27,085 bases of DNA from Geosiphon pyriformis (lineage: Eukaryota; Glomeromycota; Glomeromycetes; Archaeosporales; Geosiphonaceae): positions 1,299,381 through 1,326,465 of the forward strand of contig JAAOMT010000226.1 of the NCBI GenBank assembly GCA_016748015.1, written 5' to 3'. Below the pieces are notes generated by a model. The model had not been told where the DNA came from. It worked only from the letters and a program-made list of their open reading frames with translations, and ran no database searches. Below are positions 2,891-26,361 of the stretch, piece after piece (position 1 is the stretch's first letter; every line of letters begins with the position of its first letter). The translations under genes and the position numbers were made by a program.

Positions 2891-3858
2891 TAAATTTTGT
2901 TTTTTTACAAATTTCAACATCTTAAATTCTTATTTATTATTTTACAACATTAAAATTAACATTAATAAAAACCTAATATTAAAACTTTAAATTTTAAAAT
3001 TATATTTTTATTATTATTATTTTATTATGTTTTAATAAAATATAGTCTAATTATTAATTATAACATAAAATTCAAAATTTTTACAATTTACATATTTTTT
3101 ATATGTAATTAGTTACTTAAATTGGTTTAAATTAAATCTACAAAAGCAAACTTATTTAATACAGTTATCTTTTTACATAATTATAACCAAATTATTATTA
3201 TTATTAAGAATTAATTTAGCTAATTATATAGTAGTTTTATTTTATATGATTTGGTGCTATTATTGATTATTTTATATTATTATATATTAATTATATTTTT
3301 TTTATGATTAAACCAGTTTTTTAACTTAAATAACAATATAATTTTAAAAACAATAATAATAATTAATTTATAAGTTTTAATTTAAATTTAAAATACAAAT
3401 ATTTCCAAAATTTTGGCAAGTTTTTTATTATAATTTAATTATTTATTTAAATTGAATTAACTTTTAAAAATATAAAAATACAATAAAATAATTAAAAAAA
3501 AAATTTAAAACTTTTTTATAATTTGTTATATATTTTAATTATTGTTTTTTCTAATTTATATAAACAATTTTTTTATAATAATTTTTTTATATAAATAATA
3601 ATTTTTTTGTTAAAATTTTTTAATAATAAATAAAAAATAAACTTAAAATTTTTAATAAAATGTTGTTTTAATTTTTTAATCTTAATTGTTTTTTTTAAGT
3701 AATAGTTAATTTTAAATTATATAATAAAAAAAATTAGTTTTTGCTTTAAATGTTTTTAAATTTTTATAAAAATATTAATATAAAGTTTTTTTAAAAAAAA
3801 TTATCTATTTGACCAAGCTTTAAGTAATAGTTTTGATTTTAAAATGGTTTTTTTATGG

Positions 3859-4456
3859 TTATATAGTAATAATTAATTTGAATAATTAAGTTGTTTTAAA
3901 TATTTATATTGTAAAAATGAATTTGATAGTACTTAACTTTTATAATTATTATTAGATTAAGCATTATTATATTAAAAATATTATTTATAAAAAAAGTTTA
4001 AAGATTATTTAATTAAAAGTTAAAAGTATTCAGATTTATTTAAAAATAAGTGTGTTAATAATTTGGCAGATAAAATAATATTATCTGGTTTTGTATTATT
4101 AATTAAAATTAATAAACATTTTATTATAGTAAATAATAAAATAGTATTTAATAATATCTAATATATTTAAAATTATAAATTAAACTTATTAAAAAGTTGG
4201 TTCTAATACTTAAATTATAAAAAAATAATTGTTTAATAAAATAAAATAAAATAAATTTTTATTAATATAATATTTTAACTTATATATAACTGTTGGTTTT
4301 ATAAATAAATTTTTAATAAATTTGTATATTTACATAAAAACTATATATAAAAAGCTTTTAATAATTATTTATAAAAAATTGTAATTTAAATCTTATTTTA
4401 TTATTATATATATATATTATAAAAAAATTAAGTTTTTAAATCATGTATTTTTATGT
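3859..4456 (+). pseudogene. Fossil LINE: RNase H to C-terminal CCHC region, hypermutated
   Basis: Hidden inside the AT desert. At 3859-3876 the text reads LYSNN*, matching the LYSDSQ-type RNase H strand with Asp to Asn and Gln to stop. From 3935 to 4029 one frame reads NFYNYY*IKHYYIKNII and then YKKSLKII*LKVKS, which matches in order the DFCN-CW-HIVNLI-KDL-VKVKGHSG stretch of the better LINE copies at 8.7-8.8 kb and 13.1-13.2 kb; both stops stand where Trp is expected. After a one-base slip, 4051-4074 reads CVNNLADK (RNase H N-x-x-A-D end). It then continues with INKHFIIVNNKIVFNNI to a stop at 4159. At 4409-4456 the CX2CX7HX3C finger is still visible with both first cysteines now Tyr (codons TAT) and NHVFLC intact. 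It is a different LINE family member from the two better copies, and non-functional. Confidence 0.72.
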
Positions 4457-5386
4457 ATTATTAATTTTAATACTTACAAAAATTTGCTTAATTTACAGAC
4501 TACTATGTAAAAAAAAAATTAATCAATATTAATATATTGTTTTTTTTAATTTTAATATTTTTTTTCTGTTAATATAGTTAATAATATATTATATATAATA
4601 TTATAGTTCAAGAATTTAATAAAAAATTATAAATTATTCAATCATATAATATAATTATAATTTTAAAAAAATAATAATTAATATAATAACAAATATTATT
4701 TTATAATAATAGTAAATACTAAGTTGAAATATCAAAAAAAGAGTATTATAATATGTTTTTTCATAAAATTACAAACATATATATATATATAATAGTTTTA
4801 ATATTAAGAAAAATTATTTTTTTAACTTTTAATTTTTCATTTTAATTATTTTTTAACTTTTATTTTTAATAAATATTTAAAGAAATTTTTAAATTAAAAA
4901 AATAAGAAATAATATTAAAAACTAAATTATTATAATCAACAATATTAAAAAACTTATTTATATTATTTATTAAATAAAAATATTATTTATAGTTAAATTT
5001 CTTAAATAAATAATCTCTAATTAAGATTATTTATATTATTATTATTTATTAATAAAAACTTATTATAAAATTAAAAAAGCACTAAAAACTATTAATATTT
5101 TATGTTTTTAAATTAAAAAAACACTTTAAGCAATTGCAAAATTAGTTTTAAAAAAGATCTCAAAACAATAAATAGATTTTAATTTAGTTTTTAGAAAAAA
5201 ATATATAATTATATAATTAAAAATTAAAAAATAATTTATATTATAATATTAAAAAAAAGTTTTTAATATAAAATTAGCATTATTATGCAAATAAAATTAA
5301 AAAAATAAGAAATAATATTAAAAACTAAATTATTATATTAACAATTAATATATTAAAAAAACTACTATATAATAATAGTTTTATAT

Positions 5387-5430
5387 AAAAACTTGGTTTT
5401 TAAAAAATAATTATAAAAAACCAAGTTTTT
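5387..5430. repeat. 15-bp perfect inverted repeat
   Basis: Arms 5387-5401 (AAAAACTTGGTTTTT) and 5416-5430 are exact reverse complements with a 14-base spacer. It could form a hairpin. In sequence this AT-rich some inverted repeats are expected, but the CTTGG/CCAAG cores carry most of the local G and C. It may be a relic of an element end. Confidence 0.6.
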
Positions 5431-6341
5431 TTTAATAATAATAAATTAACTATTTTTAAAGTAGTTATTTATTATCATATTAATATTTAGTTAATAAAAA
5501 ATAATTACAAAATATTATTAGAAAAATATAACTTATTAATAAATAATAATTATGAAAAAAAAAATATGTTTTATTAAATAAAATTATATATTTATTTAAT
5601 ATTAATAAAACTTTAAAAGTTTTTTTGGTATTTATGTTTTATGTTTATTTTATGCTAATATTATCAGTTAAAAATTTAATAAACTAAATTAAATTAAACT
5701 TTAAATATTATTCAATTTGGTTTAAATTATAACCAAATTTTTAAAATAAATTCAATTTGAGTTTAAAATTAAATCTTTTTAACAAGTTTAAATTCAGTTT
5801 AAATCTGGTTTAAAGTTTACAAACTTGTTTAAGTATGATAATTAATATATAAAACTATATATATAACAATTTTATTTTTTAATTTACCAAAATAAAAATA
5901 TTGTATAATATTATTAAAGATTTAAAATCTAAAATAACAAAATTTAATAATCTAAATAGTCCAAATATTAATTTTTTTAGTAAATATAGTTTTTAAAATA
6001 AAATATAAAACTATTTTAATAAGTTTAAATAAACAAAAAAAAAGCTAAATATATAGTTTCAAAATATATATATAAATTATTTTTTTATAAAACTATAAAT
6101 ATTATTAAATTTTTATAATACTATTTAAAAATTTTTTATTAAATAGTATTTAAATTATTATTTTTATTAAAAATTTAATATTTAAGCATATTAAACTCAA
6201 TTTTTTTATCTTATATATATGATTCATAATTACTTAAAAATTTAAAAATTATTTGTTATTTTTAAACATGTTTTTTTATAAATAAAAATATAATTGTTGA
6301 TATAAATTTTGTTTGAAATTTAGCCAAAATTTTTGTTTAAG

Positions 6342-6390
6342 TTTGATTTAATTTAATAATTTGATTAAACTTAGATTAAATTAAATCAAA
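6342..6390. repeat. 15-bp perfect inverted repeat
   Basis: Arms 6342-6356 (TTTGATTTAATTTAA) and 6376-6390 are exact reverse complements around a 19-base spacer. The neighbourhood, and 5690-5840, is made of loosely repeated TTTAAAyTy-like words. Function unknown. Confidence 0.55.
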
Positions 6391-8412
6391 TATTAAAACT
6401 TTATTGTCAATAATATATTTGTTTCTATAATTTTATAGTATTATCTTAATTAATTTAAGTAATTAATTATATATAGAAAAAACATAAACTATATTTAGTT
6501 TAAATATTTGTTGTTATATTATACTATATAGTAATTAGGTTTTACTTATTAAATATTAATAATAAATAAATAGATAAATAAATTTTTTTGATATTTTTAA
6601 TAATTATTATTTTGTTTATTAATAAAATGCTTTATTTTTATAAATTTTATATTTTATAGAAAACATTAAATATTTATATATAATTTATTTAAATAATATA
6701 ATATAATTTTAGTGTTTAATTATAAAATATTAATTGAAAATTTTGTTAATTTTAAAGATTTTTAATATATATAAAAATTTTTGATAGTTTTTTTAAGTAA
6801 TTTATTTATAAAAAGTTTTTTTTATAAAAAACAAAAATATTAAAATTTTTAAAATATTAATATTTATAATTATAATAATATTTATTATTTTTTAATTGTA
6901 TTATATAAGCTGTTTTTAATTGTAATTAATCTAATTATAATATTTAAATATAATCAATAAAATTTAGTATTGTTTTTTTAAATTTTTAATAAGCTAATAA
7001 TTTTTAATAAAATTAATTTTAAAATATATTTCTTTTTTATTAAATTATTATAATATCAAATTATTTGTTATAATAGTTAAATTACTAAATTGTTTTTTAC
7101 TATTTTTAATTATGTTTAAATTAATTACAAATTTTTAAAAAAATAAAAAATTTAATATTTTTTAATTATTATGATTAAAAGTAATTAATTTAAGTTATTA
7201 AAATTTCAAAAATATTTATGTTAATTATATTAAAACATAAATAAAAAAAAATAAGTAATTTTAATAGAATTTTAATTTATATATATTAAAATTTTAATAA
7301 TATTTTTTTTAAATCAAAATTACTTATATATATATATATTTTTAGTTTTATAAAATAATTTTAAAAATGTTAATATTTTCTTAATTGTAAATATTTTAAT
7401 ATTTAAAAAAAATTAATCTTATAATAAATTTTATTAATAAAAGTTTAATCAATTTAGATTTCAAAAAAACCAATTTAATATTTATTATAACAATAGTAGT
7501 TTTTATATATAATTTTGTACTAATATTATAATTTATAAAAATTTTGAAATTAATTACAAATTTTATTGATATTTTAAAAATATATATAAAAATATTTTAT
7601 AATTTAAAGCTAAATAATTTAAATCTTAATATTTAAAACAATATTAACAATTAAAAATTTTTTATTAATTTATAATTTCTTTTTTAAAGTATTAATTTTA
7701 ATAATAATAATATCTAAATTTTTATAAAAACCAATTTAATAATAACATATTTTAATTATTAAACAGAATTAAAAGATTAAAAATAAAACAAATATAATTA
7801 TATATTTAAAAACCAGTTTAATAAACTTAAAAACAATATAATTAAATAAAAATTTATTAATTTGGTTTTAAAATAAAAAAAACTAATATTATTTTTCTTA
7901 ATAAAAATTAACCAATAAACCAAAATAATATTTAAAAAAAAATTTTTATAATTAGAAATAAATATACTGTACTGTTATTAGCCAAAAAATTTTAATTTTA
8001 ATTTTTTATTATTGTTTTACAAATTTAATTTAACATTAAAAATTTTGTTAAAAATATTATAAAAAACAACAACAAAAACAAAATTAAATATAAAAAACTT
8101 AACAATTTTAAAAATAAAAAAGTAATTTAACAAGTTTAATTTATATAACAATATTTAAAAAAGTTTAAATATAAACTTTATACAAAAAAAATTAATATTG
8201 TATTTAATAATTAATTTTAAACCAAAAAAACTAAAAAACAATTTTAATATAAACAAATTTAATTTTTATGGTTTTATTAAATATTAAAATAAAAACTTAC
8301 TAAAAAACTTTTATTAATTTACATATATTTTTTAAATATTATTAAAAAAAAAATTTTTAGTTTTTATCTAATTTAAATTAATTATTTAAAATTATATATA
8401 AAAACTATTAAG

Positions 8413-8421
8413 ATGTTAAAA
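8413..8421. repeat. Left target-site duplication of truncated LINE
   Basis: ATGTTAAAA, repeated exactly at 9887-9895 after the poly(A) of the LINE tail. A direct repeat bracketing a 5'-truncated, poly(A)-ended LINE is the expected mark of target-primed reverse transcription. Confidence 0.75.
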
Positions 8422-8430
8422 TTGTTTCTG

Positions 8431-9755
8431 TCTGTGATCATCTCTCACAAATTGGTGCTAATAGTTTGTTAGTGTATATAAATGGGTCTCTTAATGGTCT
8501 GGACACAGCTGGTTATAGAGCTGGTGCTGCTGCTTTTTTCAAGGACATTGATTTGAATTTAAGTATTAGTGTATTGAGTTTGATATTATCTACTTTGGCA
8601 GAGTTGCAGGTTATTGTACTGGCTCTGAAGTGTATCCCTTCAATGAGCTCTGTTAAATTGTTTTTAGATAGCCAATCTGCTCTGGATGTCTATAGATCAG
8701 AATTGGGTCTGACATATCCCAACTTTTGTAATCAGTATTGGGTAGAGCATCATTATATTGTCAATGTTATTTACAATAAGAATCTGAAGGTCAGCTGGCA
8801 TAAAGTTAAAGATTATTCTGGTGTTTTAGGGAATGAGCACGCTAACATAATTGCTGGTGACACTTTTCTTTCTAGTTGGCATCTTCCTTCTTGCTTGGGT
8901 CAATGCTTTATAATGGCTGATAGTGGTGTTGTTTCAAGCAATTTCAGATATTTTGTTCATAATATTTATTATTTGGTTTGTTGTACACACTGAAAGGTTG
9001 GTTTTGGTTCCAGGTTTTTGGCAGACAGTTTGCTTTCTGAAGTTGATTGGCTCCATTTATCTTTGGTTTGGCACCCTGACTTGCATATGGCTGCCAATTT
9101 TACCAGCAAACTCTTGGCTAATGCATGTACTTATTTCATGAAAACTCTACACCACTGGCTGCCAGTTGCCATTCAGAAGCATCTTTATAATAGACTCTAT
9201 TCAAGTGTTTTGTGCTTATATTGTAGTAATGTGGAGACATCAAATCATGTGTTCTCTTGTAAGATTGATGATTCTACTTAATGTCAGTTATTGGAATCTC
9301 ATGTGAACTTCTGGAAGGCAACTTCTAGTCTTTCTCATTCTTCTTCAGGTGTATTACAACTGTTATCATTCTGTGTTTCTGACTCCTCTTTGTCCATGGC
9401 TCTTTATAAGGGTTTTGTTTTTGGTGGTTGGTTTCGCAAAGCAGTTACTGTCTTTCAAAATCCCAAAGTTGCTTGTTTGGAAATTGTCAAATTTGTGCAC
9501 TCTCTTAGTCTTGCTTTTAGGAGTGATGTCTGGTCAGTTTGTGCTAAACATTGTGCTTATATGGAGAAAAAAGGATTAATTCCTCTTGATGGCTTGGTTC
9601 TCATCTTGGTTTCTGGTTTGGCCTTAAGATTGTCAGTTATGATGGTCAAATTGCTTGATATTGCCAATGCTTTTGGTGTTTATTTTGGCTTTCACAAATT
9701 TTGTTTGTTTTTTTCAGGCATAAGTAACTTAGTTTCAGTTCACATAGCTGTATAG
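8431..9755 (+). pseudogene. LINE ORF2 C-terminal part: RNase H plus CCHC tail, broken
   Basis: A single frame, opening with SVCDHLSQIGANSL at about 8431. The RNase H core is INGSL (8481-8495), where families have TDGS, so the first catalytic Asp is Asn. It continues with LAELQ (catalytic Glu kept), FLDSQSAL (Asp kept), and KVKDYSGVLGNEHAN where KGHSGVLGNEHAD is usual, so His is Tyr and the last Asp is Asn. A stop TGA at 8992 stands where Trp is expected (TH*KVG), and TAA at about 9279 is a second. Downstream are a W-H-P-D-L-H-M segment and a CLYCSNVETSNHVFSC finger (CX2CX7HX3C, about 9209-9260), then the family's C-terminal domain ending at 9755. The finger is of the kind found at the end of LINE ORF2 proteins. 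It belongs to a different subfamily from the 12-19 kb LINE. No active product is expected. Confidence 0.85.
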
Positions 9756-10138: not shown

Positions 10139-11765
10139 TCTTATTTTATTTTTATTTTTATTTTTTATAAGTAAAATTCAATTACTATTTAGTATATAAA
10201 ACCAGACTAAATAACTTAGACTAAATATAACTTATGTATTTACTACATATAACTAGTCATTTAAATCAGATAAAACAATACTATACACTTATATAAATAT
10301 TAACAGTATTACTTAACTCATAAAAAAAAGAATACAACATATACCTGCCAAAACTAACAGCAAAAAATTTAATATATCAAACAAACAGATCATTTATCTA
10401 ACAAATATCTTATAAAATTACAAAATAATCCAGATATTATACTACTATCATCAATCAAACCAGCTTTTTTTATATTTATTTATGTTTAAATCTTACAAAC
10501 TAAATCTTTAAATAATGCTTCTTTATCAAATGTTTTACCAATTTAATTACTGCTATAATAGTTTTTTTTTTGAATATCACAATAGTCTCTTTATACTAAT
10601 TTCTTAACACAAAGTCTTTGCAAATCACAGTATACAATCTTATGTCTAATAAACACTTGGAAATAGTCTTTAGAATAATAATAATAAAATTATAAACACT
10701 TACCAAAGAGACCTAAACAGCTAAAGCTCCTATCAAAATTTTTTCACAAATATTAGCATTATTAACACAAGTAAAAATATAATCTGAAATTTAATCTTAT
10801 TACAAAATAAACACAAAATTCCAGAATACAATTTGTCATATAATTTTTTCTTAACCATTATTAACAGCTGTTTATGCATGATTTTCATTAAATAAATACA
10901 CAAATTGGCCAATTCTTTGTTAGTAAACTCAGACAGCATATGTGAATTAGGATACTAAATCTGTATAATAAACACTTAGTTTATTTTTTTAATTAAAGTA
11001 CAAAAGACTACATTATAATCAGAACTAGCTTTCTAATAAGCATAACTAATAAACTTATAAATATTATAAACAAAATAACAAATACAACTGTGTTTTTAGC
11101 CACTACATAATATTTACTTATATCAATAAATAATAAAAAGAAAAAAACAACAGCCACTTTTGCCATCAAGTCAGTTTTAATATTGCCTAAAACATCTAAA
11201 TGATTCTTGACTTTTACTTACTCAACTAAGAAATCTTTATTTTTTATTAAATTAACAATATGTCTTTTTTTTAATTAGCACTAATTGTAAAAATTAAGTG
11301 TAGTAATTTCAGTCTTAAAAATACAAACATTAATAGCAGTTTAATTGTCTAAATACATAATAACTATACAAGAAAAAGAAACACATTCTAAAAACAAAGT
11401 AACAGCCTATAATTTAGTTATTGTAGAAGACAAAAGCCTATAAACAATAGCATTAATGCCTATATTTATAGCTGGAAAATATGTTATAGTCTTATAAGTA
11501 ATTTTAGCTAAACTCATATTTTTTAAAGACTTATCCATGTATATATTAATAGCTTCTAACTAAATCTTAAACAAATTTTTATATACTTCTAAAAACTTAC
11601 TAAAATTTAGAATGTTTGTATTAAAAAAATCATTAACTTCAACAAAACTTGTTTTTAAAGTATTTTTATTATGCAAAAATTATAAAGTTAAAACAAACTA
11701 ATAAAACACAAAATCCCTAAGATCTATTTTATTTAAAACTACAAAAATTGTTTTAAACTAATAAA
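10139..11765 (-). pseudogene. Heavily AT-shifted LINE tail (RNase H to 3' UTR)
   Basis: A decayed copy of the C-terminal third and 3' UTR of the same LINE family as 12017-18923, same strand. Its 3' end is a T-rich run (10139-10168, a decayed poly(A)). The 3' UTR text at 10190-10310 aligns with 12063-12180: 10262-10281 differs from 12136-12155 at seven of 20 positions, all C to T or G to A. At 10930-10750 the minus strand reads LANLCIYLMKIMHKQLLIM, then VKKKLYDKLYSGILCLFC, matching THLI-type text of the 12.65-12.84 kb copy; the CxxC survives but the following His and Cys are lost. The RNase H TDGS site is near 11520-11540 and homology is traceable to about 11765. No CpG was seen in it. Not translatable. 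Confidence 0.82.
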
Positions 11766-12005
11766 AAATTGACTTATTATAATATTATGTTTGATTTTTT
11801 TATTGTTTTTATTATTGTTATTTAATAAATATATTTTAATTATTATTTATTATAATACAATTATAAAAAAATTTAAAATAAATATAGTTTATATTTTTTA
11901 TATATAATTAATATATTAAAATCAGTTTTTTTTATAAATAATAAAGCTTTAATTTTTTTGTTGGTTTTATAATATTGATATTTAATATTACAGATAATTA
12001 AAAAA
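11766..12005. other. AT-rich desert left of the full-length LINE
   Basis: Almost only A and T, no ORF. The 11-bp target-site duplication implies it was joined to the 18935-22570 block before the full-length LINE inserted. Confidence 0.55.
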
Positions 12006-12016
12006 AATATTGGTTT
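12006..12016. repeat. Left target-site duplication of full-length LINE
   Basis: AATATTGGTTT, repeated exactly at 18924-18934. It directly abuts the poly(T) run (12014-12028) that is the complement of the LINE poly(A) tail, so the exact inner edge is ambiguous by a few T. Confidence 0.85.
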
Positions 12017-12154
12017 TTTTTTTTTTTTATTATGCTTTTAATGAGTGAAGCCCAACCACTATCTAGTACATAGAACCAAACTAAGAGGCTCAAACTAAAT
12101 GCAGCTCACACATTTTCTACATGTGACTAGCCACTCAGGCCAGACAAGGCAATA

Positions 12155-15100
12155 CTACACACTAATACTAACACACAGACTACTATCCAAACCAGAGAAA
12201 AAAAAACAAGACCTGCGATGGCCAAAACTAACAACAAAAGAGTCAGCAACACTGAGCATTCTTACTACCTTATCAGATAACAAAGAACCCAAGTAGTAAG
12301 ACAAACCTGAAAACAAACTATTATCTCCAACCAAACCAGCTTTCTCTATTCTCACCCTAAATGCCGACCTCACCAATTAGGCCTTAGAGCGATGCAGTTC
12401 AACTAAACACTCAACAAAGCCAACCACAGCACCAACAGTCTCCTTTCTATCATTAAAAATTCCCACAGCTTCAGCATACCATTCCCTTAGCACAAACCCT
12501 TTACACAAGACTGAATACAATTCAACATTCACAGAACACCAACCAAGAGATCGCAAAACAACAAAAGGCAACAAGCCATAAAGACTGACTATGAAAAGCC
12601 AATCTGTGGATGCTGCAGCCAAAACTTCCTCATGAATCTCCACATCATGAGAACATATGAAAACATGATTTGGTAACTCCACCTTACAACACAGTAAGCA
12701 AAGCACATTAGAGTAAGACCTATCATATAACTATTTTCTAACCATCACAGGAAGCTGTCGATGTACAGTCTTTATCAGGTACGTGTGAAGACAGGAAGAC
12801 CTCTGACTAGTAAAACCAGCAAGTATATGCAAATCAGGATGCCATACTCTAGTGGTAGCACCCCAATCTACAGCCTTAATTAGCACCTCAGGAAGCACAT
12901 CATGGCTAGATCTCACTTTCTATTGTGCACGACAAATAGATCTATACAAATCCCAAACAAAATGACGAGCATTGCCAGACACTGATGTGTTCTCAGCTAC
13001 CAAAAATTGCTCCCAGATACTGACAGGCAAAGACAGATGAGAAAAAGCAGTGTCACCAGTAGCAGCTTCAGCCTTAACATTGCCAAGAATCCCAGAATGT
13101 CCCTTAACCTTAATCCATCATACAGAAAAATTCTTCTCATAAATTAAATTAAAAATCTGGCATCTTTCCAACCAACAAGAGGAGCAAAAATCAGGCGCAA
13201 ACAATAACATCTCAGAAACACACACATTAATAGCTGCCTGGCTGTCAGTATGCACGACCACTATACAAGAAGATAGAACACACTCCAAAGACAAAGCAAT
13301 GGCTTGCAGTTTGGCCATAGTAGAAGACAGCAGATCATGAACCCTAACACTAATACTCAAATCAATAGTAAGAAAATAAGCAGCCACACTACCAGCAACA
13401 TTAGCATGACCAAAATTTTTTAATGAGCCATCTGTAAAGACCTCAAACAAGTCAGACCAGATCTCATGCAGCCCACCAAGAATCACAGAAAAATTCTTGG
13501 AATCCAGAACATTCAAACCAGAAACACAAGTAGACTCCGCAAAACTGGCCAATGAGATGCCAGCATCACAAAAAAAATCAGACACAACCCTAAACCAGTG
13601 AGAAACAAGACCCCTTGAATCCAATCTCTTTCAGGATCTAAAAGTCATCTAATTTATAATGTATCCCTTTCTATTAAACAATCTATCACCAAAAGCCACA
13701 CCAAAATGCATTAATGAATGAACAGAATTGAAGTGCAGAGAACTCCCCAGAATAGAAGACACAGGAAAACTACCAGGACTGCAAAATGCATTGGGCAAGC
13801 CATTTGACAAAAACAACTCATTGCACAAAAGAATCTTAACCACACCAGCCAGAAAATTGTTCACAGGACTAACACGCAACTTAACAGAAAACTGCAAAGG
13901 ATTCAAAGGAGACTACCCCAGAACCTGCAAATCGAGACATCTGTGCTCAAACAATTGGCCAAGCACTCTGGAAGAATTGGAAAATGAAATCAAGACAGCC
14001 AACTTCCCTTCAGACTGCACCTGCTCAAAAGACTTCAGACTATATAAAGATGGATGACATAGAGTCTTACTAGGGAAGTCACAAAATAAACCAGCCTTAG
14101 ACTTAAGCCTCTTCTTCAATATTACATTCTATTTGCAGCAAATATTTGACAAAACAAAACTGAACTGAGTGTGATAGCTGACAATAGACTACAAGACAGC
14201 TGACATCAAATACAAAAACTGTTTATCAATAATAGCTTTCCTGAAAACCACATAGCAAAGAAATGAACATCAAAATGAGCCTTGGCCATGCTCAGCTTTA
14301 AAAGTCTCTTAGTAAACAAAAAAATTCCCAGATAACAATGAGCTTCACCCTTTTTGGCTATCAAAATAAGCAGACCACTAACACTCAAAGAAGCAACTCT
14401 AACATCCAAATTAATTGGAATGGCCATGGTTTTCTTATTGTTAATGGAAATGTTATTGACAACAAAAAACTCACTTGCAATGTCCAAAATATTCTGAGTA
14501 GCAGCTTGACAGTTCCCAACTCAAATTGTATCATCAATGAAAGCACCAGCCACAAAATAAGAAAACAACCCACCATTGCTCTCAATCCAACCTGATTTCG
14601 AAACAAACTTAGAACATATCCAGTACCCAAAAAACTGTTTATGTCTCTTGACTTCACATAGAAGTAGATCGTAAAAAATCCTCCACAAAAGTGGTGAGAA
14701 GATTTTACCTTGATCTAAACCATCGCAAACACAATATCTATCAGAGAAACCAAAATCAGTCATCACCTTGTTGAATTTACTCTTGTGTATATTACCAAAA
14801 AATTTGATGAACTTGTTACACATCTTAATTCTCTGTAAGCTAGCCCTCAAATGATGTCACCCAACAGAATCATATGCTTTTTGCATGTCTTGCAGGACCA
14901 GCCAAAGTTCCCTATTCTTCTCGAGAGCGTTCTTTACAACTGTCCCAATAGCAAACACCAGAGACTGTGTGGATGTGCCATTCAATACCAAAAAATTGTT
15001 ACCATAGAGAACACTAAACTTACTATACATGAATAAAATCTGATTAGACAAAACCTTAGAAAGAATCTTCTTGGCAGTTTCGATTAGAGTAATAGAATGT

Positions 15101-16845
15101 GTGTTTGTAAGAACACCATCCCAATTATATGGCTTAAGAATCATTAACACCCAGGCCTTTTGCCAAAAAACAAGCACCCTGCCAGCAGACAAGCAAGCAT
15201 TCAGCAAAGTCAACAGACAACTCAAAGCCACCTTACCACCATGCTTCCACAGTTCATTAGGAATACCAGACAGACCAGCAGCTTTGCCATTAGGCAGACC
15301 ACCCACCACCAAAAGCAACTCCTCTATACCAATCTCTTTCATGACACCAGAAAAAGTCTTGTCTTTTACATAATCCAATGGCATGTACTGGTGGACCCAG
15401 CAATCAGGCAACAATAGAGGTATAGTGTACACTCTTGTCCACCCCACCATAATTTCATCCACCTTAGATTTCATCTCCTTGGGCTCCAAAACCAAGTTAA
15501 CATCAACCACCAAATGGTCAAGGACCACCTTGCAAAAAGGCCAGTCCAAAACACTTCTGATTATGCTATCTTTATTAGAAGCAAAACTCTCTATGCACTT
15601 GTCTATAGCATTCCAAATAGACACCTCTTCAGCCAATCTTGACTCAAACATTTTTGATTTCCTATACTCTTTGCAAACTAATGACAAGTGTTTAAAAAGA
15701 ACCACACTATTCCTACCCAAGATAACCAAGTCAGAAAAAACGCAAGCTTTGGCTTCATCCAAAGTGAACCATTTTCTTACAAAACAATCAACTCCAAGCA
15801 TGTCACCAGAACAAATCTTACTAACAATCTTGGCAATAAGCAATTCAAGCCCAAAGAACTTTGAAGAATGCCTATTTCTAGAGCACTAAAATTTACTAAA
15901 CCAATGTTTCGAAAAAACCTCATCAGCTGAATCAACTATTTCTCTTTTCAAAATTGCCCATATAGTATCCAAATCACCACCAGCTTTGGCATCAGAGAAG
16001 AGGTCTCTGACCAACTGAAGCCTAGCTGAAACACAATCCTTAAACTTAGTCCACTTGGCAACATCCGTATCTTTAATCCTGAACTTTCAACAATCTTTGT
16101 TAGCCTGCTTGCACAAACTATTCAACTGAACATCCAAGAGCCTACTCAAACCAACCAACACCATAACAGCACTGTAATCTATATCAAAAAATTCAGAAAC
16201 AAACCCAATACAATGCTTAGCAACAGCAAAAGACAGATTTTCACCAACTAAAATGTAATCAATAGTCTTTTCAACTTCCCTCAAATTGCACCATATAGGC
16301 ACCCCAGCCAAATGATGGCCAGTAAAAAAATTAATCAGACTCAAACCCAAGCAAAACCTGTAACTTGTGCTCCTCCCAGACCCGTTTTTATTGAAATTTC
16401 CACCCAATATAATGAAAGTGCTGGTATTAACAGTCTTGGCAATGATAGAATTAACCTCAGATGCCTGACCAAAATGAACACCAAAAGAAGCACCAGCATA
16501 CAAACTGAGCACAGTCACTGAGAGCTTGTCTTTAAACAATAGTCACACAAAAACAATCCGACCAGGAATCTCATCAATCTTAGAAACATGGTGAGCCAAA
16601 GAATTATTCATGATCACAGCAACACTGGCACCAAAATAACCAACATCCAAACCAGAAGTAAAAATCTGAACTCCATCAAACTTATTCTTGATCCATGGTC
16701 CAGCAGAAAACCTCAACTTTGTTTCAGTAACAAAAGAAACCATATTCCCAGAACTTACATGCCAACAAACAATGTCTGTTTGCTTAGCAGGAACATTGAT
16801 ACCTCAAACATTGCACATTGCAAATTTCCAAACCAAATTGCTCAT
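12155..16845 (-). pseudogene. LINE ORF2: endonuclease, reverse transcriptase, RNase H, CCHC (broken)
   Basis: It starts at ATG 16845-16843 (MSNLVWKFAMCNV), which overlaps the ORF1 stop as ATGA. Endonuclease: TETK (Glu kept), GGNFN at about 16390-16404 where GGDFN is usual (Asp to Asn, codon 16398-16396), FDIDY at about 16170-16190 where TDH is usual (His to Tyr, codon 16176-16174). Reverse transcriptase: GKAAGLSGIPNELWK, QDMQKAYDSVG (motif A), DQGKIFSPLLWRIFYD (motif B), FIDDT at 14524-14543 (motif C), YLGIF. RNase H: TDGSL (about 13425-13440), AKLQA (Glu to Lys), TDSQAA, KVKGHSG, NVKAEA (Asp to Glu). C-terminal finger CLLCCKVELPNHVFIC (CX2CX7HX3C). In-frame stops include 16806, 16545, 16089, 15888, 14859, 14523, 13915, 13651, 13120 and 12922; most replace Trp or Arg. 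A one-base deletion lies near 14262. The frame is otherwise continuous to 12155. Confidence 0.92.
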
Positions 16846-18887
16846 TGGGATGGAAAATGAACAGAAGAGTCCGAATTAGAACACAAGAGATCCAATCTCA
16901 CCAGAACTGAACTGATAGAAGTCTCCAAAGCAGACATCTTAGATTCTAAACCACCTACTTTAGAGGTAAGAACCTTTGAGCTGCTAGAACTAAGAACAAT
17001 AGCAGATTCATTAGCACCAGAAAAAGAAGGAACAAACAAAGTCAATCCACTATTTAGAGCCATATCTGAATTCTCAACCAAACCTACATATGCAAAAACA
17101 GCTGGAGGAGAAATACAAGAAAGAGGCACCAATGGCACCAATTTAACAAAGCTCAGTTTTTTCATAATACTGGAAATCTGATTGGCTAAGAGCTCTAAAA
17201 AGTGTTCCAAAGATGCCAAACAATCACCCAAATCAGAGATATCAAGAGACCCAGAGACCATTAAAAGAGGTTTTACACCCAGAATTAAACCAACACCAGA
17301 AGTGACTGAAGAAGCCACACAAGAGGAAGAGTTGCCAGTGATCTGGGCCCATGTTTTACCACCAAAGGAAACTGAATGGGTAATGAGAGCATGCTTCTTC
17401 CTATATATATTAGCCAGACAAACCCAATCTTGAGAGGTAATCACATGCTTGCCATGACCACCAGAATTCTCACCCACAGAACAGACACCAGAAACATGAC
17501 CAAACTGTTTACATGTCACACAACAGGCCAGAAAAAGACCAGCCCAATGCAAACCCACACCCTTGAAGATCAGAGCCGAACCAATAGCAGCCAATTTGGA
17601 TGCTTCATTAACAAAACAAATGACAGCACACCTATCACAAACATACATAACCAGATTATGGCTAATAACACAGATCTTCTCACCATATGAATCCAACAGA
17701 CCAGAAAGATCATGAACAGTAGTGCCAACTGGAAGAGTATAAAGCAATGCCTGATGCTGATCTCTGGATACCCACGCTTGTTTATCACTGATTGTCTTTG
17801 CCATACAAACAGAATCTTTTTCCACAAGCACAGACTATCTAGCTACAACCAAATCAGCCATCTCAGATGATTCATATTCCACCAGGGCCTTTTGCCAAAG
17901 ACCAACAAGCTGCAACTTAACAGAAATAATCTTACCAAACTTGGAAAACACTGCCTCAATCGCTGATCTGAGAAGATCCACTAAGATCTCCCTGACAATT
18001 ACTTCCCGATCTGAACAACTGTTTACCTTCCTGATATTATCATTAACAAGAATCTTTTCATTAATTGCCATTTCCTTAACCTTTTTTAAACTCAACTCTG
18101 AAGTAAAAAACAATTTTATTATGCCTGGAAATTTTGAGAAAGTTGACACCTCCCCAAAACCATCAATCTGATAAAAAATTTTTTTTATTGCCATCAACTT
18201 ATTAACATTTGTTTTGCCAGTAACAGCTGACACTTCAATATCCAATGTGAATGATTTTGTTGAATTAAAACTCCGTTTTATCATGGCACGTAATTTGAGC
18301 AGCAGCAACTGATTGGACTCACCACTCACACGAAAAGGAAGTTCCAACACACCATCATCATCACTCATATGTTTAAACACAGACTGCTTTGGCAGGTTGT
18401 CTAGTGCACATGTTCGTGTGCAAGTCCTCTTTGGTGTTGCTTCATCTATGTCATCATTCTCACCTGATCCAGCATAACAGGCTTCTTCGGCTACTGTGGT
18501 CTCCACATACTCAGCATCCGAAAGATCACTCACACTGCTAGAAACACTACCAACCTCACTTCCCCAGAACACCACAGACTTGGCACCAGTACCTCCAACA
18601 TTCTCCAGGCTCAGAGAGCCAGCAGACAAGTTGACCACATTACTGGCTGCAAACTTTTTCAGCTTCTTGAATAATGGACCACGAGAATAAATACTATCTA
18701 TACAAGCTTTCTTCTTACCACCAGACTGAATTCTCAACCTAGCTGAACCAGCACCAGAACCACTGGCAGAAGAGTCTTCCAGTTTTATAACAACAAATAA
18801 AGGCGTAGGAAGAAAAATAACTACAAAAACAAAGGGTAAAAGGTAAAAAAAAAAGCTATTTCTGTGACAAACTTTCTTTGCTCCCAT
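16842..18887 (-). pseudogene. LINE ORF1: two RRM-like segments plus CCHC zinc knuckle, one stop
   Basis: It starts at ATG 18887-18885 (MGAKKVCH). Residues about 11-33 are strongly hydrophobic, which is odd for an RNA-binding ORF1 protein. Then come a Ser/Gly/acidic region, a first RRM-like fold (REVIVREILVDLL...KFGKIISVKL...ALVEYESSE), and a TAG at 17837-17835 where Trp fits. The same frame continues: a second RRM-like segment (LYTLPVGTT...RCAVICFVNEAS), and a CX2CX4HX4C knuckle at 17522-17481 (C-VT-C-KQFG-H-VSGV-C). A Ser-rich linker follows, then a short heptad-like segment near the end (KVGGLESKMSALETSISSVL). It should coat LINE RNA and form the particle with ORF2. The stop TGA at 16844-16842 overlaps the ORF2 ATG. 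Only the TAG interrupts it, so ORF1 is far less damaged than ORF2. Confidence 0.85.
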
Positions 18888-18923
18888 TGTAGTCAGAGGA
18901 TTGACGAGAGAAAAAAGTTTTTT

Positions 18924-18934
18924 AATATTGGTTT
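18924..18934. repeat. Right target-site duplication of full-length LINE
   Basis: AATATTGGTTT, identical to 12006-12016, directly outside the LINE 5' end. Confidence 0.85.
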
Positions 18935-21900
18935 ATAAATTAATATTTTTATATTGTTAATTAATCTAAAAGTTTTAAATAATTTAAAAGTTTTAATAAG
19001 TTAAATTTTTTATATAATGAACAAAAATTTATTAATAATAATTAACAATATTTAATATTTAACCTTTTTAATATAATAACTAATTTATTTTAGTATTTGT
19101 TTTTTTTAATAAGTAATTTAATAAATTAATTTTATATTTATTAAACAATATAATTTAATACTTTTTTTAATTAATTAATAATACAAAATATTATATATAT
19201 AAAAAAGAAATAATAAATAAAAATTAATATTTTATTAATAATTATAATTAAAAGTTATTGTTTTAATATTGTTAAAAATATTTAAATTAATATTAATATT
19301 TATTAATAATAAATAAATTTCAATAAAATAAATAGTAATTATAGAATTTAAATATTAAATAATCTAAATAATAATTTTATTTAAAAAAACATTTATTTTA
19401 AGTATTAAATTTCTAACTATTAAAGTTATTTAATAAATTAAATTGTATTTAATTGTATTTTTTTGTTTTTAATAATAATATTATATATATAAATTTTTCG
19501 AATTTTTAATAATTTTTACACTTTTTTTAAAATTTTTAAAATTTTTAAAATTCTTTATATTATATGATTTAATAATTTTTTACTATATTATTGACTAATT
19601 TTATGTTATATTAACTGTTATTTAATTTTCAAATTATTTTATAAATAATATTATGTTTTTTTTTAATATTAAATTTTAATAAAATTTACTTTTTTAAATA
19701 AACTTAATAATTTTTTTTTATAAAGTTAAAAATTTTTATTTTCAGTTTTTTAAATTGCAAATTGGTTATTTTTTCTAGTTAATTTATTTTAATATTTTTA
19801 TAACTGAATATAATGGTATTATATTATATTTTTAAAACATTAAGTATAATTGATATATGATTTTTAAGTAGATAATTAACTGCTTTTTTTAATAAAATAT
19901 TTTATTTATTGTATTATTGTTTTGTCAAATACTCTTTTGAATTTTGTTAATATATAAAATTTAAATATTTAGTTATTGTTTTAAGTAATAATAACAATAT
20001 ATTATTAGAAATTGTTTTTTTTTTTAATTTTTTTAATTGTTTTTTATTAATTTTTTAATTTAAATTATTATTAGTAAGTTTTTAAAAGTTTTTTTTACTT
20101 TTAACAATTTTTTACATAATTATTAGATTATATTATTTGTTTTTTTTTAAGTATTTTTATAACAATTTTTTTGGCTATTAATTATTATTTTTATGTCTAA
20201 TTTTTTATTTTTTAATATTTAAAACAGTTATTAAGCATTTAAATAAATATTGTTTGTAATTTTTATTTTTATTGATTATTTTATTATATTTTAATAATAT
20301 TTATATACTTTTTTAATTTTATAATATATTAGTTTTACTAATAATAATTGGTTCTAAATCTTATAAAATTTTATCTAATTTTATTAATATTTTTTATATT
20401 TTTAATTATAATATATATAATGTTTTAATATAATATAGTTTTAGTTAATTATTATGTATTGCTTTAATTAATTATAATTTATATGTTTTATTTCTAAGTA
20501 TTTCTTTAATATAAATTTTCTATTTTTATTTTGGTATGATATAATAATACTTTGTTAATTTTAATTTTAATTGGTTTATTTAGTAATTAATTATTATGTT
20601 TTTTTTATGTTTTAATATTGTTAACTGTTTATTTTTTTTTGTTTTAATGTTTTTATTAAGTTAAATTTTTGTTTTAATAGTGTTTTTTTATAACTTTAGT
20701 TATTAATTTAATTAAATATATTATTTTTATTTTAACTAATAATATTGTTATTTTATTATATATTAATTAAATCAATTTTAATTTAATTAAATAATTGTTT
20801 TATTTTAATTGGTTTTAGTAGTTTATTTAATCTTATTTCTTTTTTTTTGCCAAATATTACAATTTTGTATTTATTAGATTATATTTAAATATTTAGTTAA
20901 TTAATAATATAATTTTTTGGTTTTTTTAATTATTACTTTGCAATTAAAATATTTTGTTGTTAAGTTTAAATATATATTGAACAAAATTGTTTTTTTTGTT
21001 TTATTATTATTTTCAATAAATTGTTTAACTCTTATTAATTTTTTTAATATAATATATTTTAATAAATAAAATAGTATCTAAATTAATATATTTTATTTTG
21101 TTTATTTTAAGACAATTTTTTTAAATTACTAAATATTAATATAATATAATTATTAATAAATTTACTTATTTATTTTGTGTTTTTGTAATATATAATTAGT
21201 GTTTTTTATTCTTATTTTATTTATAATAAGTTATTAATATTTTTGTTTTTGTTTTTTTTTATAATAAAATTTATATTTAAATAACAAAAATACTGTTTTT
21301 TATTTAATATTTTTATTATTTACCAATTTTTTTTGTAATAATATTAAACTTTTGTAATTAATATAAATATTAAATTATTTTTTAAAATATTTATTTTATT
21401 TTATAATTGTTTAATAAATTGTTAAATATTCTAATACTAAAATTTTATAGTTTTATTTAGCTAAACTTAAGTTTTTGTTAACATATATTATTAAAATGCT
21501 CTTATTTATCTGGTTTTTATTGTAATATTATTATTTTTAATACTGTTTTAAATATATTAATTACAATTATGAACAATTTATTATAGTCAGATTAAAACTA
21601 AAGCTTTAATTAGCTTTTGTTTTAACTTTTTAAAAGCTTTTTGTGTATATTTATTTATTTATAATTGGTATTTTTGTTTACAATTAATAAAACAGCTAAG
21701 TAATTATTAAAAAGTTTAGATAAATTGTTAATAATATTCAGTTAGTTTCAGAAATTTTTTTAGTTCTATTAAATTTTTAAATTTTATAAAATTTTTTATT
21801 TTTTTGAATTAGTTTTAATATTATTTTTTCTATAATATATTTTAAAAACTTAAATTTTGTTTTTTTAAAAGAATATTTGTTGGTATTAAGTTTTAATTTA

Positions 21901-22570
21901 ACTTTTTAAAACTGTTTAAATATTTATTGTACATATACTTAATAAAAAAAAGTTATAAAACACTTAATAATATTATTATTTTGTGTTTTATAAATAATAA
22001 AAATATTTATAAAAATTTATTTATAATTATATTAGCTATTTATAAATAACAAAAATGTATTAAAATAATAATTATTAATTAAAACAAAGATATAATTAAC
22101 AATATTTAATTCATGTTTTTTTATTAACTTAAACTTTTTTGAAATTTTTTTTTAATAAACATAAATATTTAAAAATCTAAAATTTAATATTAAAATTTGA
22201 ATGATTTAAAACCATTTTAATTTACTTTTTAAATAACCAATACAATTATCCAATTTGAATCTAATAAAGTATTTATAAGATTATTTACAAAAACAACTCA
22301 AAAAATAAAATTTATATTTCAAAATTTATTTCTTATATTACAAGAAAAATAACAAGTAATTTCATATAAATTTAATTAATAGTGTATTTAAACATATTAA
22401 AAAATGTATTAAAAAAAAGAATAAATTAATTAGTTATTAAGTATTAAATAAAATAAAAAGTTAAAAAAACAATAAAATATTTTATGATTTTTTTCTGTAA
22501 AGTATAGTAAAAATATTTATTAAAATCTTTTAAAACATGTTAATATTATTAAATAATTAATTATTAATTA
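18935..22570. other. Second extreme AT-rich desert, decayed Ty3/gypsy element
   Basis: About 3.6 kb of nearly pure A/T with T and G favoured on the plus strand. I saw a single CpG (near 19498). No open gene exists, but on the minus strand 20550-21905 can be read as a degraded pol gene (separate entry). 18935-20540 should then hold the 3' part of that element and 21906-22570 the upstream reverse transcriptase; I could not read either with confidence. Confidence 0.75.
20550..21905 (-). pseudogene. Fossil Ty3/gypsy pol: reverse transcriptase, RNase H, integrase, hypermutated
   Basis: Read on the minus strand through the AT desert. 21901-21831: KLKLNTNKYSFKKTKFK then FLKYII, matching the Ty3 pattern L-x-K-C-x-F-x-x-x-x-x-x-F-L-G-H-I-I with Cys to Tyr, Gly to Lys, His to Tyr. 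After a one-base slip: KKIKNFIKFKNLIELKKFL then KLTEYY*QFI (to about 21720), matching ELKKFLGLTGYYRxFI. The same frame goes on to YTQKAFKKLKQKLIKALVLI (about 21655-21590), the KAF-x-x-LK connection to RNase H. 21501 onward reads EHF in an RNase H-like context (EHPIxYASR). At 20875-20830 the text IQNCNIWQKKKRNKIK fits the CDICQ half of the integrase zinc finger, preceded by YY*LTKY (YYWP). A weaker match to the H-P-Q-x-D-G-Q-T-E region lies near 20550-20610. Order agrees with Ty3/gypsy. Confidence 0.72.
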
Positions 22571-23557: not shown

Positions 23558-25135
23558 TTATAAATTCACAGAAACAGAGCACCTCAGAGATACACAAAAG
23601 TGACAACTATTAGAACAATAGGAAAGGACCACTCCTTATACGGAAGAGCACTATTTCAATACTTTCGAAAAGATCTAAGAATACCAGCAGAAACCATCAT
23701 CACAGAAAGTGATTTTTGCAACTATATCAACACAAAAATCAACTGCTTGTTAGGCTGCACAACTAATATAGGAAAACTTGGAGAACAAATCTATTAAAGC
23801 TTACTAGGGTACTCAACAACTACTACTACTTGAACAATTACTGAAACTCTATGCATAGTCAATATAGACATTAAACACTATGTGACACAATGGTTCCCTT
23901 AAGTACAACAACCAATAGAATCTGATCTGGAGAAATACAAGTACAAATTCAATAATTCTACAACTGCCCAAGACAAGTCCATGGTCAACAAAAAACCAAG
24001 ATTCCTCTTCTCAACAATCTTTTCATATCATCAGACATTCCAAAGTAGAATTGTATTTAACCCATCTCTGGAAACCCAGTCGGAAACACCACAAACTCCT
24101 AGAAATTCACACTCTTGGGGTCAACACAGTTGGACCAAATCACTAAGAGAATACAGATCACTGTTTGGAAATCTTATCCCAACAGCCAGTCAAACAGAAA
24201 GAAACATGTCAACTCGGGAACAACTACCAGCATAAAACCCAACAGAATCAGCATCTTTTTTGATAGAAGAAACAGCTATTTTACAACCTATTGGTTTAAG
24301 CAACAAAGAAAAACAACCAGTATTAGCACCCAGAAAACACTTAAATATGCAGACACCAATTCCCTTAAATGCAACCAGTAACATTCTACCCATCAACCAG
24401 ATTATGACTTACCAAGATATTGCTAAGTTAGAAAAATTCTCAGGGGAAAAAAACAATGCATATTTGTGAATTGTGGAAGCTGAAAAAGCAATCACCACTA
24501 ACAACTAAGATGATGATAGAGTTATTCAAGCACTGCCATTCTTTCTAACTAGAACTGTAAACTCGTGGTATCAAAGCCTTGCAAAAAAACCAACCAACTT
24601 TAACACCTTTAAGCTTGCCTTTCTATAATACTTTTGCAACCCCAATACTTTAATTCAATTGCAGAATCAATTCAGCATAATTAAACAAAAAGATTATGAA
24701 GCAGTAACTACTTATCTTGAATAATTCAATCAAATTTTTTATCAAATATTAGCTATCAAAAAGGACTACTATATCACAGTACAAGTTCTTAATCAATTCA
24801 TTAAAGAATTGTAGAGCAGTATTCTAAGATCTATAAGATCTCGTCATCTGACCAATTTACAAGACGCCATTGTTCTCACTTGTAATTTTGAGTTTGCAGA
24901 ACAAGAAGCAAATCATATCCAAGCTGTTAATTTGGCCATTAATAGAACCTCTAACATTGACACAAAGATAATCCAATTAAGTGAAAAATTAACTCAGAAG
25001 ATTAAGAAATTCTTAGCCAGAACTGTAGGAACTTACCAACTATTACAATGGAAAGAAAATAACAACAACAGCAGATACTTACAGCAACAGAACCATTAGC
25101 AACAACAACAACCTTAGAGATCTGATCCCCACAAC

Positions 25136-25177
25136 TGTTACTACTGCCAGAAACCTGGACATATTGCCTGTAACTGC
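25136..25177 (+). other. Gag CCHC zinc knuckle
   Basis: CYYCQKPGHIACNC fits CX2CX4HX4C exactly; all four ligands are intact in this otherwise damaged copy. In retroelement Gag proteins it binds genomic RNA. Confidence 0.85.
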
Positions 25178-25545
25178 AGAAAGAAAATAATGAACCAAAA
25201 TCAAGAAACCAATACCAGCAACCAAGATATTAGCAAAACTTGGTATCCCAATATTTCATCTTTTAAAATCAACCACTCCAGTATGCACAACAAGTCCCAT
25301 ATACTCAATCATCACCCCAGAATTATTATTAACTACTACTAATAATACAAGCAATCCTTCACTATCAAACTTCTCCTTTTAGCCAGTCCAGACCTTGAGC
25401 CATAGACTATAATCAGGGATGAAGAAATTCCAACAACAATTAGGCACAAACCAACAGTAGACTGTCCTGACCAATCTTTTGCAGTCCTGCCCAATTTTGA
25501 CTAGTACCAACTGGATACCCGAATCAAGCTTCCTATCTTGGTCTT

Positions 25546-25965
25546 ATGAAAGACCAGAATTTTGATAAATCTACATCTATGGAAGAGAGGAATGTAAAAC
25601 AAATCTCCCAATCTTCTAAACAAACAAAAAGCAATATTTCACCAGCCACTATTATTGAGGACACCACCCTAGCCACCATATTTTTTTTTGACATTAATAA
25701 TTTGAACACCCATAGTCTTTTTAGTGGAGCAGCCATCAATCAGGATAAACTAATAATGACCCTATATACCAATGCCAAAGTTGGAAAAATAGACATTAAA
25801 TTAATTCTGAATAGTAGATCAGCCAGTAACATAAAGCAGCTCATGGACCAATTAAGTTACCAAGTAGACCATACTGCTACTGCTCGGATTATTACAACAG
25901 ATAGAAACACAAAAACTCCAATAGAAGAAATTGACAACTTCTTCTTCAAAATTAATGGAATCTAA
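25546..25965 (+). pseudogene. Retropepsin-like protease segment of Pol
   Basis: A frame of 139 residues with the aspartic-protease core LILNSRSASNI, then QLMDQLSYQVDH, ARIITTDRN, PIEEIDNF, and past the stop at 25963 the text IPTKVLVMEAT, YQALVENNWL. This is the usual strand order of retrotransposon proteases. The catalytic Asp codon (25810-25812) is AAT, one G-to-A step from GAT. The Gly codon (25816-25818) is AGA, one step from GGA. Catalytically dead as read. Confidence 0.8.
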
Positions 25966-26361
25966 ATCCCTACCAAAGTACTTGTTATGGAAGCTACTTA
26001 ATATCAAGCTCTGGTAGAAAATAATTGGTTGTTGAAAGCCAATGCTACTCTCAACTGGAATACCCAAAAACTTCAACTCATGTTTAACAGACAGTATGCC
26101 TGAGTTCTAGCTACATGCAGATACTTTAAAACTCAACATATTAAGGAACCCCTTATTAAATTTAAAGACACATCACTACCACTGACCATCAAGATCTATC
26201 AGGTTTTATGGGCAGATGATTATCAAACTAAACTATCTCCACTACCAATCTGGGAAGAAAAAAGAAAAGGCAGAGCCAAAGAAAAATCCCAATTGTCATC
26301 ACTAAGATATGTAACCTCAAACCAAAGAAATCTATTTTACCAACCTTTAAGACTAATATAT

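Follow-up and report, generated by a model that had tools for sequence, protein, structure and literature searches.

C-to-T decay of transposon copies in all sequence contexts, with tested duplicated genes spared, in Geosiphon pyriformis

Two neighboring copies of a LINE-like (long interspersed nuclear element) family in the genome of Geosiphon pyriformis raise the question of whether repeated DNA in this fungus is hypermutated from C to T, and by what process. They lie in the window, by which we mean the whole stretch of 27,085 nucleotides analyzed here (assembly GCA_016748015.1, contig JAAOMT010000226.1, positions 1,299,381 to 1,326,465 of the forward strand; this contig is C318 below). A first-pass annotation had compared the two copies and proposed repeat-induced point mutation (RIP). 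Our overall answer is that transposons undergo C>T decay (G>A on the other strand) in all contexts, that this decay proceeds like a clock and does not appear in the duplicated genes we tested, and that RIP proper is unlikely.

Copy A (10139-11765, minus strand, 21% GC (0.207)) is the 5'-truncated 3' tail of a LINE-like element, its strand being indicated by the T-rich 3' end together with the minus-strand frames of copy B. As first described, it aligns along its full length with the tail of copy B (12014-13640, minus strand, 40% GC), and in a 20-base sample (10262-10281 against 12136-12155) all seven differences are C>T (three) or G>A (four), with nothing else. That sample is unrepresentative of the whole pair. 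Over 10139-11765, 923 of 1625 aligned bases are identical (57%), and the 702 differences divide into 449 transitions (C>T 219, G>A 134, T>C 52, A>G 44) and 253 transversions. The parity of transversions and transitions that the first-pass annotation named as refuting is not reached, but the pair is far too diverged for a direct reading in terms of RIP. In addition, copy A is not a mutated form of copy B. A genome search with copy A gave best non-self matches of 77-79%, which are AT-rich, and copy B is not among the 44 matches listed (40 of 1368 first-look candidates were scored). In the multi-copy alignment its nearest relatives are copies L032-L035 (78-80% identity, against 57% for copy B), which places copy A, as an old copy, in subfamily L031-L035 and copy B in another, younger clade, B1 (L001-L007). 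The A/B pair cannot carry an argument for hypermutation; the family as a whole can.

For the family we built an alignment of 42 copies, 30 taken from the 41 matches listed for one search and 12 from the 44 for the copy A search, and estimated, by expectation-maximization, one ancestor-to-copy matrix for each roughly star-like clade; copies L027, L030 and L040-L042 are in no star model, and L036-L039 are in the spectrum and context models only. GC>AT transitions account for 95.0%, 88.2% and 88.6% of the terminal changes in clades B1, B2 and B3, and transversions for 3.7%, 6.7% and 4.5%. In the A subfamily GC>AT transitions make up 82-88% and transversions 4-5%; C>T has affected 39-43% of the ancestral C, and G>A 37-41% of the ancestral G. 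Copy B itself has lost 17.5% of its inferred ancestral C to T and 17.4% of its ancestral G to A, beside five other changes. The decay matrices have stationary GC contents of 2-8%. Singletons counted without any model are GC>AT in 75-92% of cases in four B clades, clade D1 and a second repeat family, and in 26% of cases in the kinase genes described below. Majority polarity fails in the A subfamily, where it would make 34.7% of singletons GC>AT; here 600 of the 653 segregating columns contain only C and T or only A and G. The base carried by most B copies is C in 276 and T in 48 of the 398 C/T columns; for the 202 A/G columns it is G in 120 and A in 60.

The changes are spread over all contexts. 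In B1 the C>T rate on either strand is 0.11-0.13 at CpA, 0.16-0.18 at CpC, 0.09-0.10 at CpT and 0.44-0.47 at CpG, and in the A subfamily it is 0.31-0.41 outside CpG. Plain decay of methylated CpG would explain why CpG is the fastest context (0.39-0.47 across the B clades and the second family; 3.6-4.6 times the other contexts in seven of eight sets and 1.7 times in the A subfamily, where few CpGs remain). As a sole cause it is nevertheless refuted, and we give it virtually no chance, because CpG supplies 41%, 38% and 31% of the C>T/G>A changes in B1, B2 and B3 and 4% of those in the A subfamily. With many copies, the first-pass annotation is thus borne out in two respects: the changes extend beyond CpG (to CA, CC and CT) and to both strands, and simple CpG decay is insufficient, C>T/G>A occurring in all CpN contexts of two repeat families. 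Alignment of the family across the genome yields the expected C>T/G>A excess, with CpG as the fastest context.

The second of these families is represented in the window by a 1.6-kb piece at 24600-26200 (given on the plus strand; the repeat's own strand is not established), which has at least 40 matches, itself among them, and no Pfam match in the two frames tested. A star model of nine copies, namely the window copy and eight others, assigns 90.7% of changes to GC>AT transitions, 4.7% to the reverse transitions and 4.6% to transversions, with a C>T rate of 0.39-0.41 at CpG against 0.10-0.19 elsewhere, the same signature as in the LINE-like family. The excess of C>T/G>A in repeated DNA, in all contexts and on both strands, is real and genome-wide. 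As a separate observation, the window piece matches C269:1036802-1038402 over 1601 bases with 100% identity. Both stretches are near contig ends (the window ends where C318 ends, and C269 has 1,038,692 bases), so the identity probably reflects overlapping contig ends that the assembly left unjoined, and not a recent transposition.

Does the process recognize duplicated DNA as such? In classical RIP, as in Neurospora, duplicated DNA is recognized by homology before meiosis and mutated from C to T in bursts, and C>T/G>A in repeats, on both strands and with few other changes, is a spectrum that this process would leave. Two types of duplicated gene provide a control. The methyltransferase gene at C318:788280-789372 (L043) has a degenerate duplicate at C318:820713-821336 (L049), about 32 kb away on the window's own contig; the two align over about 1.1 kb with about 90% identity. 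With the less broken copy taken as the starting state, the 72 changes consist of 31 GC>AT transitions, 19 AT>GC transitions and 22 transversions (p = 1.7e-29 against the B1 spectrum). Likewise, eight kinase paralogs (1 kb, 78-87% identity), whose domain has at least 146 matches in the genome, show 28.3% GC>AT transitions, 16.5% reverse transitions and 55.3% transversions, with an observed/expected (o/e) CpG ratio of 0.62-0.91. The C>T pressure does not act on the tested genes, and, since the spectra of both are ordinary, duplication as such is not its trigger.

The same controls bear on a genome-wide AT-biased mutation, under which all non-coding bases would decay alike and transposons would be nothing special. 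The AT deserts of the window (7-10% GC; 3001-8000 at 8.8% and 19500-22000 at 9.9%), which flank the transposons, come close to the stationary GC of the decay matrices, and the intergenic DNA behind a DNMT1-like gene (locus L046) drops to a similar 6-13% GC. Such a bias is nonetheless highly improbable given the ordinary spectra of the gene duplicates, though both controls are coding sequence, and the GC content of the genic loci fetched, mostly 25-47%.

A burst should leave the highest ratio of load to transversions in the youngest copies. We compared the load outside CpG (K) with transversions per site; here, as in the singleton counts, six of the eight kinases (all but L110 and L112) and six of the nine second-family copies (all but the window copy, L078 and L079) were used. 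The young second-family set has a ratio of 71, the A subfamily 61 and the B clades 36-55, while the lowest values, 11 and 13, belong to the youngest clades, D1 and D2 (30 of the 40 pattern-search copies and seven others); gradual decay therefore fits better than bursts, with the qualifications that copies were picked by similarity or, for D, by a pattern requiring CpGs, that the D clades may carry inherited transversions, and that repeated mild rounds of RIP would look the same. Load tracks transversions, and per-copy loads are near-Poisson (variance/mean 0.31-1.36). Strand-coordinated tracts were considered and rejected: per-copy runs cluster slightly relative to a simple null, and the clustering is gone once column mutability is preserved (z = 0.09 for B1, -0.04 for B2, -1.31 for B3 and 0.27 for A). 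The Neurospora-type composite index, which the first-pass annotation had suggested computing, is positive for copy A (0.28) and the deserts (0.30 and 0.38), but negative for copy B (-0.56) and the second family (-0.39).

The enzymes present are also informative. A search with the PF00145 profile gave ten matches at seven loci; by eye these include a DNMT1-like gene (C96), two DIM-2-like genes (C355 and C327) and two DNMT2-like genes (C307 and C346). C318 has a further ENV-type C5 methyltransferase gene together with its duplicate, and the first piece of this gene scores nearly equally with PDB chain 3g7u (Cytosine-specific methyltransferase) and with DNMT1 chains. Motif VI is readable in six genes and is ENV in all six. 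Of the enzyme types for which the first-pass annotation had proposed a search, DIM-2 thus has two candidates, but the EQT/EET motif VI of the RID/Masc1 type was not seen in the six readable genes, in a search that can miss genes. Here and below, literature statements come from individual passages of the papers cited: EQT/EET is given as the mark of the RID/Masc1 group (PMC6709928), and the clade of arbuscular mycorrhizal fungi is said to have RID (PMC8298701). With duplicated genes spared (a 1.1-kb duplicate at about 90% and eight long paralogs), the youngest clades free of excess load, loads near-Poisson, strand tracts absent, CpG rather than CpA the fastest context, and ENV in every readable motif VI, RIP is not established as the mechanism, and we consider it quite unlikely. 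A loss of uracil repair was looked into separately. The ung model gives three consecutive pieces at C271:277695-278345, one of them with HPSPLS, and a Pfam search for UDG, which missed this gene, gave one weak piece that is MUG/TDG-like by eye; loss of UNG is ruled out as a cause, and, with both genes present, loss of uracil repair is not needed.

We think it probable that the decay stems from cytosine methylation targeted to transposons in all contexts, followed by slow deamination; methylation as the cause, and its non-CpG part in particular, are what we infer. Under this explanation, methylation would cover silenced transposon chromatin, densely at CpG and more thinly in other contexts. The 5-methylcytosine would turn into thymine spontaneously and be missed by repair, on both strands and about four times faster at CpG. 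Copy A would then be an old member far along in its decay, copy B a younger one that is part way, and the 7-10% GC deserts plausibly the end state.

Several results weigh against this explanation. In the old set L036-L039, GC>AT falls to 74.7% and transversions rise to 13.8%. Under strict outgroup polarity, which requires agreement of the other A copies and of 90% or more of the B copies, the 83 singletons of the A subfamily divide into 48 GC>AT, 23 AT>GC and 12 transversions, a weaker excess. The low ratios of D1 and D2 belong here as well, as do the passages of the literature, in which we found no statement of non-CpG transposon methylation, and the CpGs kept by certain short copies.

Copy L073 (254 bp) has nine CpGs (o/e 0.79) and copy L091 (252 bp) has seven (o/e 0.69), whereas eight long relatives close to L073 (L086-L090, L092, L094 and L099) have at most one each; the three long relatives set beside L073 differ from it mainly by C>T and G>A. 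A pattern search for three intact CpGs with at most two mismatches gave 52 places, against none in the reversed control, and 46 of these were examined. The TTACTA variant occurs in nine of the 46; eight keep all three CpGs and all eight are short (about 118-254 bp), and the ninth (L143) has lost two CpGs. The TTTCTA variant occurs in the other 37, two of them short (8/8 against 2/37, p = 2e-7). In a length-neutral sample based on a 98-bp core, 37 of the 41 places reach about 250 bp or more, and none of these has all three CpGs, as against two of the four short copies (L113 and L114; p = 0.007); the other two (L171 and L182) are mutated. In a similarity-ranked list, one of 40 copies was short (the lengths of 17 came from one search and of 23 from another). 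In a further list, of whose 41 rows 20 were examined, 19 copies reach at least 422 bp and one is short. Short copies often escape, then, but not always.

Plain decay predicts no such retention unless the short copies are young or unmethylated, and they could indeed be young. The retention suits a mark that senses length, whether through RIP, RNA-guided methylation or the process known as methylation induced premeiotically (MIP). For RIP, efficiency is reported to depend on repeat length (PMC12543289), and the three-CpG TTACTA copies and the length-neutral comparison agree with this; the two mutated short copies do not. Alternatively, an MIP-like or RNA-guided process might mark long repeats for all-context methylation while leaving short fragments and genes unmarked, with slow deamination afterwards. 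This is a more specific form of the methylation and deamination explanation, to which it adds a step that senses length, and the spectrum speaks for both equally. Small RNAs from LINE and Gypsy loci in Rhizophagus irregularis (PMC8647823) would agree with it. However, the short copies that escape are few and possibly young, and CpG retention was the basis on which they were selected; two of the four in the length-neutral sample are mutated, and the kinase paralogs, long and repeated, are spared; we regard the proposal as possible but doubtful.

The ends of the short copies are of some interest in themselves. L073:647-901 and L091 (C81:240832-241083) are short 3' copies of different subfamilies that share the same end point, after GACCACACC, where they adjoin DNA of 7-8% GC; the shared end may mark a site prone to truncation, or the copies may belong to a short relative that is non-autonomous. 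At L022, a LINE-like 3' end on the minus strand (C401:1024758-1024849) is separated by about 10 bases from another on the plus strand (C401:1024859-1024953).

Within the window, the LINE-like element to which copy B belongs probably extends over 12014-18932 (minus strand), judging from its open frames at 13118-13630, 14857-15885, 16087-16542, 16842-17834 and 17835-18932. The first of these matches Pfam RNase_H at 23.1 bits, under the cut-off of 25.8, and the other four have no Pfam match; apart from this sub-threshold match, the LINE identity is assigned by eye. A second RNase H fragment, of retroelement type, lies at 8412-8993 (plus strand; Pfam RNase_H 26.2 bits, barely above the cut-off).

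If the decay is indeed all-context C>T change limited to transposons, it would explain the very AT-rich intergenic DNA, would provide a clock for dating transposon bursts, and predicts non-CpG cytosine methylation. Since the composite index is negative in the younger copies, RIP scans based on such indices could miss the process in young elements. More speculatively, and with little confidence on our part, the fungus may possess a genome defence able to distinguish long transposon copies from genes and short fragments, which marks the cytosines of the long copies in all contexts with an ENV-type set of methyltransferases rather than with classical RID and, by steady mutation that needs no sex, turns these copies into AT deserts.

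Compared with known systems, the decay resembles RIP of Neurospora crassa, which involves RID and DIM-2, in its concentration of C>T/G>A in repeats, on both strands, in its AT-rich product and in a possible dependence on length. It differs in affecting all contexts with CpG fastest, the RIP context being CpA (PMC12543289), in sparing gene duplicates, in its clock-like load, and in that no EQT/EET methyltransferase was seen among the readable genes. RIP signatures were not detected in Gigaspora margarita or Mucoromycotina (PMC8647823, citing others), and the passages of a RIP survey of 1,239 genomes make no mention of RIP in arbuscular mycorrhizal fungi (PMC12543289). A further parallel is R. 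irregularis, in which most transposable element loci are highly CG-methylated (PMC8647823) and total 5-methylcytosine is high, at 32.5-49.5% of cytosines (PMC8298701), although the passages of these two papers do not mention a mutational effect outside CpG. MIP of Ascobolus methylates the cytosines of transposons without mutating them directly (PMC4352252) and would leave an all-context substrate for slow deamination; here gene duplicates are spared. Finally, the transposons of fungi such as Microbotryum and Tuber share the preference for CpG, and their CpG-type C>T bias has been tied to methylation followed by the proposed deamination of 5-methylcytosine (PMC4352252), whereas here 59-69% of the C>T/G>A changes in the B clades lie outside CpG.

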